DNA of 64,000 nt from a virus: positions 1 through 64,000 of IMG/VR virus record IMGVR_UViG_3300036818_000089; one strand, 5' to 3'. Positions within the stretch are counted from its first letter, which is position 1. Each line of letters opens with the position of its first letter. The notes beneath the pieces were generated by a model, which did no database searches, was not told the DNA's origin, and saw only the letters and a program-made list of their open reading frames with translations. This document shows positions 5,479-25,404 of this stretch, piece by piece. The position numbers and the translations under genes were made by a program.

Positions 5479-5675
5479 CGGCCAGCCTCCAGTTCCTTCG
5501 GATCCGGCATCCCCGGCTCGGTATCCCACTGCCGGTTCTGGATATAGGACTCGATGGCGTACAGAGATTCGTCGACGCTGTCCCAGGCGCCGGACGACCC
5601 AAATCCGATTTCGGTCCAACCCTTGTCATCGTTGGCCTGGATCGTGTACTCGATCCGGTACTCGCGTTCGCTCAC
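5475..5675 (-). CDS. Small hypothetical protein
   Basis: 66 residues, ATGA-coupled on both sides. The pattern EYRIEYTIQAND, a WTEIGFGSS turn and an ESYIQNRQWD helix suggests a small alpha/beta fold. Function unknown. Confidence 0.65.
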   Translation of the reverse strand: MSEREYRIEYTIQANDDKGWTEIGFGSSGAWDSVDESLYAIESYIQNRQWDTEPGMPDPKELEAGR

Positions 5676-6145
5676 TGCTGCTTCCCCCTCAGTGCCGCAA
5701 GGGCGGCGTCGGCGTAGTCAGCGGCAGCGATCAGCCGCCAGCCGAGCGAGCGGCCTTCCTCAGCGGACAGCGGCACCGTCGTCAGCCACGTCATCAGGCC
5801 GACACCGGGCTTGGTGTCCTCGACCCAGGCGGTCACTCGCGTGAACGTTTCGAGCTGCCCCTTCGGCATGACCCAGCTAGCGCCGTCGTCGAGTACTTCG
5901 TCGGGCGCGAGCTTGGCTTCGTCGTCCGGCTGTGCCGCTGGGGCAGCGAGCGCGGCGGCGGCCATTGCTGCGTCGTATGCGGCTTGGCGGATGGCGACGT
6001 CCACGTAGGCGTCGCGGTTGGCGCGGTTGCGCCAGCCTGCGTAGACGCTGGCGGCGATCTCACCGGCCCTCTTGTAGATGCGCTCGCGCGCTGCCTGTTC
6101 GGTTGGGTTGGGGTTGGCGGTGGGGCCAGCCGGGTCGGGAATCAT
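5672..6145 (-). CDS. Hypothetical Ala-rich protein with MIPDPAGPT start
   Basis: 157 residues. The N-terminal MIPDPAGPT is shared with the transporter at 6945-7505, and the DNA around both starts is nearly identical over 31 bases. The body is helical and Ala-rich with a central WVMPKGQLETFTRVTAW segment. Probably an accessory protein of unknown role that acquired its 5' end by duplication. Coupled as ATGA to the DpdA-like gene. Confidence 0.65.
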   Translation of the reverse strand: MIPDPAGPTANPNPTEQAARERIYKRAGEIAASVYAGWRNRANRDAYVDVAIRQAAYDAAMAAAALAAPAAQPDDEAKLAPDEVLDDGASWVMPKGQLETFTRVTAWVEDTKPGVGLMTWLTTVPLSAEEGRSLGWRLIAAADYADAALAALRGKQQ

Positions 6146-6151
6146 GCCGCG
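6121..6151. repeat. 31-bp near-identical repeat, left copy
   Basis: Matches 7481-7511 at 29 of 31 positions. It covers the first codons and ribosome-site region of the gene starting at 6145. Together with the right copy it brackets the transporter-DpdA pair. Confidence 0.7.
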
Positions 6152-6948
6152 CCTCCAAAAGGCAACTCGTCTTGCACTGAACGATGCGACGAAGCCATCT
6201 CCGCCAGCACGCTGTTACGCCAGGCCACCGCGTACCGCAGGCAGTTCGCGCAGTTCTTGTGACCCGAACACCCCGCCATCGGACCGCCCGCGCGTCGCGC
6301 CTCGAACGACCACGCCATCGAGTCCGCAGACGCCAAGTGGTGCCCGTACGTCGACAGTCCGCGGCGCTTGACACCGAACCCGTGCAGCGGGATCCCGGGG
6401 TCAACAGCGCGGATCGAGGCCATGATGTGCCCGATCTCCCCGGTAGCCTGCCGGCGGCACACCGACCCGACACCCACCACCGGGAACCGGGACAGGTCGA
6501 CACCGGCCGCGGCGTAGAGGTCCATGCACCGCAGGTAGTCGTCGCGCTGCCAGCCCTGCAGGACCGGCATGAACGGCGAGCGCGTGTCGTCGCCCCGCAG
6601 GTCTTGCAGGTGCACGAAGTTGGCGACCGTGCGGGCCTGGTGCTCGGCCACGCTCAAGCCCGTCTTGGCCAGCATGAACGGCTCGCACATCCAGTCCTGC
6701 GGCGCCGCCCACGACAGGCGGCCGATCTCGCTGTCGTAGCGGCGGACCGCGGCCACGTACTCCTGCGGGGTGGTGCGCCACTCGCTGAACAGGGACAGTT
6801 CGGAGAACCCGCCGGAGTCCAGGGCCCAGTCGGCCACGGCGCGCGGCAGGCCACGGCGCCCGGCCAGACGGCGGTGCGAGACGAACAGGGGCACGCCCGC
6901 GGTTTCCAGCCAGTGGGGCTGGTGGGTGCCCAGGTAGAAGTAGGTCAC
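6142..6948 (-). CDS. dpdA: DpdA-like tRNA-guanine transglycosylase superfamily protein (DNA deazapurine modification)
   Basis: 268 residues from a GTG overlapping the transporter stop (GTGA). The catalytic-loop signature DSGGF of TGT enzymes is at residues 44-48, with beta-barrel landmarks PQDWMCEPF, FMPVLQGWQ, VVGVGSVCRR and HGFGVKRRG in the expected order. The C-terminus has a GCSGHKNCANC cysteine cluster in the position of the TGT zinc site. Established knowledge: phage DpdA proteins exchange guanine in DNA for 7-deazaguanines and block host restriction. The short length and absent RNA-binding extension fit phage DpdA rather than cellular tRNA TGT. The adjacent precursor transporter supports the role. 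Confidence 0.85.
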   Translation of the reverse strand: MTYFYLGTHQPHWLETAGVPLFVSHRRLAGRRGLPRAVADWALDSGGFSELSLFSEWRTTPQEYVAAVRRYDSEIGRLSWAAPQDWMCEPFMLAKTGLSVAEHQARTVANFVHLQDLRGDDTRSPFMPVLQGWQRDDYLRCMDLYAAAGVDLSRFPVVGVGSVCRRQATGEIGHIMASIRAVDPGIPLHGFGVKRRGLSTYGHHLASADSMAWSFEARRAGGPMAGCSGHKNCANCLRYAVAWRNSVLAEMASSHRSVQDELPFGGAA

Positions 6949-7505
6949 GCTGCCACCGCCCCGGTTCGGGTGCCGGTGGCGCGTTGGATGGTTTCGCGGA
7001 GCAGCAGGTAGGTGCCGGTCACCCAGATCGCCTTCACCAACAGTTGCCCGGCCACGGCAGGTCCGGTGATGCCCAGACCGGACAGGCCCAGGAACATCAG
7101 GGTGTCGATGACGGCGCCGGTCCAGGTTCCGGCGATCACCGCGACACGCCAACGGCGCTGGGTGCGCAGGCGGCTGTAGACGGCCATGTCGAGCGATTCG
7201 GACACCAGGAATGTGGTGCCGGAGGCGAGCGCGATCCGCCCGGATCCGGTGGCCCACGACAGGAGCGCGCCGGCCAGGATGCAGGCGAGCACCCAGCGGC
7301 GGCCCGCCGCGTCTTGCAGCGTGTTGCGTAGCGCGATCACGCCGCCGGCGAACCACGTGCCGGCTGGGGCTAGCAGTCCGAGGCCGACGTGGGTGAGGCC
7401 GTAGCGGCTGGTGACCCAGTTCGCTGCGACGATGCCGGCCAGGTACAGGGCGGCGACGAGAATGGCTGCGCGTGGCCTGGTCGGGCCAGCCGGGTCGGGG
7501 ATCAT
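6945..7505 (-). CDS. VUT/YhhQ-type queuosine-precursor transporter
   Basis: 186 residues with five or six hydrophobic helices. Landmarks include LAGIVAANWVTSRYG, FAGGVIALRNTLQDAAGRRW and LVSESLDMAVYSRLRT, which match the VUT family (YhhQ relatives) that imports preQ0, preQ1 or queuine. It is the upstream partner of the DpdA-like gene and overlaps it as GTGA, so the two are co-translated. No QueC/D/E or FolE genes lie in the window, which implies salvage of a host or environmental precursor rather than de novo synthesis. The start shares MIPDPAGPT with the gene at 5672-6145. Confidence 0.85.
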   Translation of the reverse strand: MIPDPAGPTRPRAAILVAALYLAGIVAANWVTSRYGLTHVGLGLLAPAGTWFAGGVIALRNTLQDAAGRRWVLACILAGALLSWATGSGRIALASGTTFLVSESLDMAVYSRLRTQRRWRVAVIAGTWTGAVIDTLMFLGLSGLGITGPAVAGQLLVKAIWVTGTYLLLRETIQRATGTRTGAVAA

Positions 7506-7511
7506 GCCGCG
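7481..7511. repeat. 31-bp near-identical repeat, right copy
   Basis: Matches 6121-6151 at 29 of 31 positions and covers the transporter start codon and upstream region. Confidence 0.7.
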
Positions 7512-8743
7512 GTCCTCTCGATCAGTTCGGGCAACATCGCCCGGTACGCCAACAGGGCTTGGGCCGGCACGACGCCGTTGCCCAACAGGTGAATCTGGTC
7601 CGTCCGCGCCAGGCCAGGCACGTCCGTGACCCAGCCGGCGGGCAGGCCCATCAGCCACTCCACGAACTGGGGGCTCAACTGGCGTCCTCCACGTCGTCCC
7701 ACAACGACGGGTGCCGGTGCAGGTCGACCGAGGACGAGCTCCCAGCGTCGGACGGCGGGTCCGTAGGCTCCCCACTCCAGACCTGCCGGGCGATCCCCGT
7801 CAGCAGCAGCTCGTCCGACCCGGCACCTCCCCGTGCCGCCCTCGTCCCGTCCGCGTCCGCCACGGTCGGAGTCGGCAGCAGCGCCGCCACCTCGTTCAGC
7901 GGACGCGAGTTCTTCCCGTGCTGATTCGACGCCGACGACTTCCAGTCCCGCGCCGCGGGCGTCGGCAGCAGGTGCACCACTGTCCGCATGTCCGGGCCGC
8001 CCGTGCCGTGCGTTCCGGGGCCGTTCGTGTCCGAGGCTTTCGGGGTCGGCAGCAGCGCGATCGCGTCGTCCAGGTTCCGCTTGCCCTGCGCGAACCGCTT
8101 CGCCGCCGACCCGGTCGACATGCTCCTCGATGAGTGATCCCCATCCCTGGCCTGCGCGGTCGGCAGCAACGGCGAGGATGAAGATCCGCCTGCGTCGATG
8201 GGGAGCACCGGCGTCCGATGCCCGTACACAACGCCACTCCGCATCGAACCCGAGGTTGGCCAGGTCGGCGAGGGCTCGGCCCAGCTCTCCGAGAGGAGCG
8301 ATGCTTGCGACGTTTTCCAACAGCACGATGCGGGGTCGTAGGTCGCGAATGGCTCGCGCGACGGCCGGCCAGATGGCTCGCTCATCTTCGGTGCCCTTCT
8401 TCTTGCCGGATGTGGACCAGGGCTGGCAGGGCCATCCCGCGGTGAGCCAGTCGATACGACCGGCCCACGGCGCCCAGTCGGCGGTGGTGATGTCCCCGAC
8501 GTTCGGCACACCTGGCCAGTGGGCATCGAGGACACGGCAGGGGGTGGGCTCGGCGGGCTGCGCGAGCCAGCCGGAGTCACGCCCGTTGCCGGGAAATTCG
8601 CCGTCCTCGCCGAGGTGAGCGGCACGACATGCGGCGTCCTCACAGGCGAGAGCTGCCTCACGGGTGCAGAACGGGCACTCGTTGGGGTACCACTCGTCCT
8701 TGCGTGGCAGCGCGAGCGGGCCCTCGCGGGGGACGTCGGTCAT
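7502..8743 (-). CDS. C5-cytosine DNA methyltransferase (phage type, unusual frame structure)
   Basis: 413 residues from ATG 8743 (AGAGGA upstream). Motif IV GWPCQPWSTSG (PCQ at 105-107), motif VI ENV (143-145), motif VIII RRRRIF (183-188), motif IX QLSPQFVEWLMGLPAGW and motif X LLGNGVVPAQA are present. Two oddities. First, no FxGxGG SAM-binding motif I precedes HWPGVPNVGDI. Instead there is a Cys-rich N-terminus (CPFCTREAALACEDAAC). Second, between motifs VIII and IX another frame, open to 7675, has much stronger G/C third positions and encodes three LLPT-type repeats known from phage methylases. The native product may involve a frame change. It is coupled to the transporter gene. Confidence 0.75.
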   Translation of the reverse strand: MTDVPREGPLALPRKDEWYPNECPFCTREAALACEDAACRAAHLGEDGEFPGNGRDSGWLAQPAEPTPCRVLDAHWPGVPNVGDITTADWAPWAGRIDWLTAGWPCQPWSTSGKKKGTEDERAIWPAVARAIRDLRPRIVLLENVASIAPLGELGRALADLANLGFDAEWRCVRASDAGAPHRRRRIFILAVAADRAGQGWGSLIEEHVDRVGGEAVRAGQAEPGRRDRAAADPESLGHERPRNARHGRPGHADSGAPAADARGAGLEVVGVESAREELASAERGGGAAADSDRGGRGRDEGGTGRCRVGRAAADGDRPAGLEWGAYGPAVRRWELVLGRPAPAPVVVGRRGGRQLSPQFVEWLMGLPAGWVTDVPGLARTDQIHLLGNGVVPAQALLAYRAMLPELIERTAA

Positions 8744-25345: not shown

Positions 25346-25367
25346 GTGCACTTGTGCACAAGTGCAC
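25346..25367. repeat. Partition palindrome 1 (22 bp)
   Basis: Perfect palindrome with half-site GTGCACTTGTG. It differs from the second copy only at position 4 and its mirror position. Confidence 0.75.
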
Positions 25368-25382
25368 CTGTTGTGTCCGCCC

Positions 25383-25404
25383 GTGTACTTGTGCACAAGT
25401 ACAC
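25383..25404. repeat. Partition palindrome 2 (22 bp)
   Basis: Perfect palindrome with half-site GTGTACTTGTG, 37 bp centre-to-centre from copy 1 and 21 bp before the parA ATG. Candidate parS and operator. Confidence 0.75.

Follow-up and report, generated by a model that had tools for sequence, protein, structure and literature searches.

The locus raises a question of supply: where would a phage that carries a predicted DNA guanine transglycosylase (DpdA) obtain the base to be inserted, and is this the task of the transporter gene next to it? The window, a 64 kb stretch of DNA, belongs to a 75,796-base virus record in which tail tape-measure, minor tail and head genes of a tailed phage are present. 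The host is likely an actinobacterium, since the sole isolate matches of one structural protein are Streptomyces phages. The best reading of the pair, and one that is probably correct, is a two-gene salvage module that combines import of a precursor with base replacement in DNA.

Operon and flanking repeats

Four genes lie head to tail on the minus strand between 5672 and 8743, joined by three successive 4-nt stop/start overlaps. They are, in order, a C5-cytosine DNA methyltransferase (7502–8743; 413 aa), a VUT/YhhQ-family membrane transporter (6945–7505; 186 aa, ATG start), dpdA (6142–6948; 268 aa, GTG start) and an ORF of 157 aa (5672–6145) whose ATG overlaps the dpdA stop and which has no family match in Pfam or PHROG. 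Positions 6142–7505 of the minus strand are therefore exactly two genes, VUT and dpdA. A mechanically called ORF at 6142–7356 carries the dpdA frame too far, into VUT; comparison with relatives places the start at 6948. The stop of the methyltransferase and the ATG of VUT share ATGA, and the stop of VUT and the GTG of dpdA share GTGA, which upholds the co-translation of the two genes proposed in the initial annotation. The cytosine methyltransferase claimed there as coupled to the pair is likewise recovered (PF00145, E 4e-28; phrog_363, E 5e-49; PCQPWS and ENV motifs). Some 1.4 kb beyond the end of dpdA, also on the minus strand, follows a gene of the DUF1643 family (PF07799; 3987–4772).

The two genes are bracketed exactly by a 33-nt direct repeat on the minus strand, with one copy at the methyltransferase/VUT junction (7479–7511) and the other at the junction of dpdA and the 157-aa ORF (6119–6151). 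The copies are 94% identical, and their 23-nt core is expected 0 times by chance. Each copy contains a stop/ATG overlap, and VUT and the 157-aa ORF start with the same nine residues, MIPDPAGPT, encoded in the repeats. The simplest reading is that VUT and dpdA were gained as one unit at a repeat junction. Elsewhere in the window, a near-palindrome, GTGCACTTGTGCACAAGTGCAC, occurs in two copies 37 nt apart (25346–25404), and is possibly an operator or replication site.

Relatives of the methyltransferase lie near VUT-dpdA in several Pseudonocardiales loci, and the best four share 37–43% identity over most of the length. Within codons ~190–330 of the window gene, GC content by codon position points to the +1 frame (LLPTPT motifs, ORF 7675–8661) as the coding one. 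Both ends are in frame 0, and only the middle shifts to the +1 frame. The GC3 signal is lost at the same place in one relative (L155). Either compensating frameshifts or overprinting may account for the pattern.

Folds of the two proteins and the predicted active site of DpdA

The dpdA product belongs to the DpdA family PF23859 (E 6e-117, 390 bits with a cut-off of 27) and to phrog_1279 (E 7e-117). The DSGGF motif is intact at residue 44, as had been noted in the initial annotation along with the TGT-superfamily assignment. Ten residues (D44, S45, G46, F48, Q84, D85, Q131, G159, G161 and D209) are invariant in 39 DpdA sequences; among these, by analogy with TGT, D209 is the predicted nucleophile and D44 the predicted acid/base. 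The AlphaFold (AF2) model has a pLDDT of 92.5 and forms a TIM barrel of the TGT type. Against solved structures it scores Z 19.2 with the archaeosine TGT 1iq8, 18.8 with 7ui4, the DpdA that inserts preQ0 into DNA, and ~18 with the Z. mobilis TGT. The structural comparison with DpdA, proposed earlier as support, thus bears out the TGT fold; the scores to TGTs and to 7ui4 tie, and structure therefore cannot separate DNA enzymes from tRNA enzymes. A PDB sequence search found no relative, whether with the single protein or with the profile, and none of the hhalign comparisons with one sequence each (E. coli TGT, CAjan DpdA, Aoka gp40) aligned confidently. The argument for TGT-likeness therefore rests on the fold.

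Profiles and motifs lean towards DNA as the substrate. In the Pfam scan the dpdA product has no match to PF01702 (tRNA TGT) at E<=1, while the positive control, E. coli TGT, scores 560 bits. When a profile of the PF23859-type family was run in a six-sequence search, it recovered CAjan DpdA at E 1e-4 and a Rosebush-type DpdA at 2.5e-4, but not E. coli TGT (0.45). CAjan and Rosebush have dPreQ0 in their DNA (PMC6884629). The window motifs DSGGF, HGFG and DSMAW have their counterparts in the DSGAF, HAFG and DSSSW of CAjan DpdA, and in the DSGAF, HGWG and DSSGW of the Rosebush-type DpdA of Arbiter, a close relative used as a stand-in for Rosebush. E. coli TGT has DSGGF, but GIDMFDC instead of the DSxxW motif. 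Grouping with tRNA TGTs, which would speak against the initial annotation, is thus not what profile and motif indicate: there is no PF01702 match, and the DSxxW of proven phage DpdAs is present.

The VUT protein matches PF02592 (Vut_1; E 3e-9, 37.8 bits, cut-off 27.2) and phrog_4899 (E 1e-34), in agreement with the transporter type assigned from the initial annotation. Its AF2 model (pLDDT 88.6) has as top structural neighbours the S-components of energy-coupling (ECF) transporters, at Z 8.5–11.1, including binders of riboflavin, biotin, B12, thiamin and folate. This result comes from the VIA-align comparison; Foldseek alone gave weak matches. Among NCBIfam models, VUT falls below the equivalog cut-off of the YhhQ preQ0/preQ1 transporter NF008406 (39.6 vs 252 bits) and below that of the queuosine precursor transporter TIGR00697 (32.6 vs 50.95 bits), and its cargo is therefore deduced from the neighbouring gene.

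Recurrence of the pair and possible supply of the precursor

The pairing of VUT with dpdA is not unique to this phage and recurs widely. A sample of 80 loci with the window type of DpdA was fetched from IMG/VR. One very close contig, IMGVR_UViG_3300036855_000067, was rejected as independent support since it is the same virus, leaving 79. VUT lies within 6 kb of dpdA in 13 of these, always on the same strand, upstream in 12 and downstream in one; the genes are separated by ~0.5–0.7 kb in two loci and abut or overlap in the rest. A search of whole records found VUT in 10 other DpdA records, beside dpdA every time. Similarly, 16 of 80 dpdA loci from bacterial genomes have VUT upstream on the same strand, ending at the dpdA start, and adjacent VUT and DpdA matches occur on plasmids of Nocardia sp. 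NBC_01377 and Embleya sp. NBC_00896. VUT is missing from the vicinity of dpdA in some four fifths of the PF23859 loci sampled.

The linkage can also be seen from the side of the transporter. Isolate phages seldom carry VUT, which at E 0.01 matches 75 of their 50,697 records, and all eight phage records examined for its neighbours have a TGT/DpdA-like gene within ~2.5 kb, usually adjacent. The neighbour belongs to phrog_1279 in phiLM21, to phrog_887 in N3_2, X2_30, Pam5 and CAjan, and to phrog_15826 in Aoka, ReqiPine5 and GreaseLightnin; a neighbour of the phrog_15826 type also occurs in two viral contigs retrieved through VUT only. Although labelled as of unknown function, phrog_15826 looks like a short DpdA-like family (DNGC and DSADG motifs), a name given only by the annotators of Aoka. 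Its genes beside VUT are at L085:5563-6174 (GreaseLightnin), L086:5841-6467 (Aoka) and L087:5489-6109 (ReqiPine5). Distances among VUT proteins correlate with those among DpdA proteins over 27 pairs (Mantel r 0.49, p 2e-4), host relatedness not being factored in. Comparative genomics thus makes a functional coupling of VUT and DpdA likely.

Conjugative elements carry the pair as well. In Pseudonocardiales the cassettes adjoin type IV secretion genes (PrgI, a TrbC/VirB2-type pilin, a TraC/TraG-like ATPase), a serine recombinase, and DNA methyltransferases of the N4/N6 and C5 types. An ICE-like stretch of 8.7 kb with VUT-dpdA is 99.99–100% identical in Prauserella endophytica, Amycolatopsis marina and A. 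roodepoortensis (L161, L167, L168), and this identity in three species indicates a recent transfer.

Synthesis genes for a 7-deazaguanine precursor were sought by profile. Consistent with the absence of QueC, QueD, QueE and FolE claimed at the outset, no match to QueC (PF06508), QueD (PF01242), radical SAM/QueE (PF04055) or FolE (PF01227) was found in the 75.8 kb record, which is possibly a fragment, so a synthesis gene may lie in a missing part. In a relative, record G021, the place just upstream of a PF23859 dpdA that VUT usually takes is filled by QueC and QueD, as though making the precursor could stand in for importing it. No FolE turned up close to these three genes, and no radical SAM gene in that record. 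The arrangement suggests that the PF23859 clade uses a base of the preQ0 type. Another record, G022 (locus L184), has a FolE-QueE-QueD-QueC set with a Rosebush-type DpdA and a second DpdA, of the PF23859 type, ~6 kb away; with two DpdAs, the PF23859 clade may do something additional, or have diverged in function. The idea that VUT is confined to hosts without QueC was rejected, for QueC is present in 7 of 15 host genomes with VUT and in 12 of 35 without, and there is no anticorrelation. QueC is on the same contig as the cassette in only one VUT-bearing bacterial genome, ~94 kb apart.

Possible roles of the pair and known systems

A salvage module would work as follows. VUT would insert in the host membrane and import a 7-deazaguanine base of the preQ0 or preQ1 class, supplied by other soil bacteria or by leakage from queuosine/preQ0 metabolism. 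DpdA, for which Asp209 is the predicted nucleophile and Asp44 the predicted acid/base, would release selected guanines from DNA by cleaving their N-glycosidic bond and put the imported base in place of guanine. DNA modified in this way would no longer be cut by host restriction enzymes, and the co-translated cytosine methyltransferase would add a second, independent mark. Here we infer the cargo, DNA as the substrate of this clade, the insertion of 7-deazaguanine as the activity of DpdA, and the protection. Several observations count against salvage: most relatives lack VUT, QueC shows no anticorrelation with it, VUT scores below the cut-offs of the named transporters, G022 has a PF23859 DpdA in addition to a complete Rosebush-type set, the fold fits DNA and tRNA enzymes equally well, and mycobacteriophage Orion, which has a singleton DpdA, carries no 7-deazaguanine in its DNA when propagated on M. 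smegmatis, in which the pathway is missing (PMC6884629). The unmarked DNA of Orion is consistent with lack of the precursor, and also with an inactive or different enzyme.

Alternatively, the pair may salvage a queuosine precursor for tRNA, VUT importing it and the TGT-like enzyme inserting it in host or phage tRNA, and so tune translation during infection. VUT family proteins such as YhhQ serve queuosine salvage in bacteria, the PHROG label reads 'queuine tRNA-ribosyltransferase', and the fold is that of a TGT, with tRNA TGTs scoring as high as DpdA. Nevertheless, this use of the genes is unlikely, given the lack of a PF01702 match, a family profile that favours CAjan and Rosebush-type DpdA over E. 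coli TGT, DSxxW in place of the GIDMFDC of TGT, and the linkage to DNA methyltransferases on mobile elements. The imported base may also be a different one, purine-like or vitamin-like, giving an undescribed DNA mark that is neither preQ0 nor preQ1. The named preQ0 transporters are only remote relatives of VUT, the PF23859 DpdAs are a family of their own that one phage (G022) adds to a complete preQ0/DpdA set, and no known mark is present in Orion (PMC6884629). However, the PF23859 dpdA of G021 directly follows QueC-QueD, and CAjan, a dPreQ0 maker, carries a VUT gene too; an undescribed base is thus rather improbable.

That VUT and dpdA are two unrelated accessory genes, brought together by accident or decaying, with no joint function, would agree with the many PF23859 loci without VUT and with the unmodified DNA of Orion (PMC6884629). 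Intact frames, conserved catalytic residues, a same-strand adjacency repeated in many divergent viruses, bacteria and plasmids, and the fact that VUT accompanies DpdA-like genes of three distinct families speak against such an accident, and we regard it as highly improbable. Salvage of a precursor for DNA modification is the preferred reading.

Phages with DpdA only were described in 2019 as 'group 3' (e.g. Mycobacterium phage Orion and Salmonella phage 7-11; Hutinet 2019, PMC6884629). They made up the largest group of DpdA phages surveyed there, and whether their DNA is modified was considered hard to foresee (PMC6884629). Uptake of an exogenous precursor was suggested in the same work, and phage YhhQ homologues were noted, with no correlation with a group (PMC6884629). 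For bacteria, the GATOR-GC study of 2025 reported YhhQ in ~9% of dpd islands and proposed preQ0 salvage for islands without synthesis genes (PMC11888242). Published work thus already covers phages with DpdA alone, YhhQ in phages, and salvage by dpd islands that carry YhhQ (PMC6884629, PMC11888242). In the literature searched, we found no description of a recurring VUT-DpdA operon, of its occurrence with three DpdA-like families or of copies on actinobacterial conjugative elements. A broader proposal, for which the balance is about even, is that VUT and DpdA form a mobile cassette, often with DNA methyltransferases, which phages, plasmids and conjugative elements share in actinobacteria and beyond and which makes DNA protection hang on an environmental metabolite and supplies many orphan DpdAs. 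The recurrent pairing suggests that many orphan DpdAs may live on imported precursor. It points to a possible precursor source for DpdA-only phages, and turns the question into a feeding experiment. If true, the secretions of neighbouring bacteria would govern how far such elements modify their DNA and withstand restriction.

The window phage resembles the group 3 phages in having DpdA without preQ0 synthesis genes, and its DpdA is ~58–65% identical to most of those in 391 mycobacteriophage records with this DpdA family. Unlike them, it has VUT co-translated with dpdA; the mycobacteriophage VUT matches examined belong to another phage group, with a different DpdA-like family. Its VUT shares the PF02592 family with the E. 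coli YhhQ / COG1738 preQ0 transporter, but scores far below the equivalog level. With the YhhQ-bearing bacterial dpd islands (dpdA-K), the likeness lies in the preQ0 salvage proposed where synthesis genes are absent; the window DpdA differs in being shorter and of a separate family, and the Pfam scan of the immediate neighbours of the cassette showed neither dpdB or dpdC nor a restriction operon. Seuratvirus CAjan likewise has DpdA and a VUT-family (putative preQ0) transporter in one neighbourhood, with the same active-site motifs, whereas it makes its own preQ0 (FolE, QueD, QueE, QueC) and has a DpdA of phrog_887.
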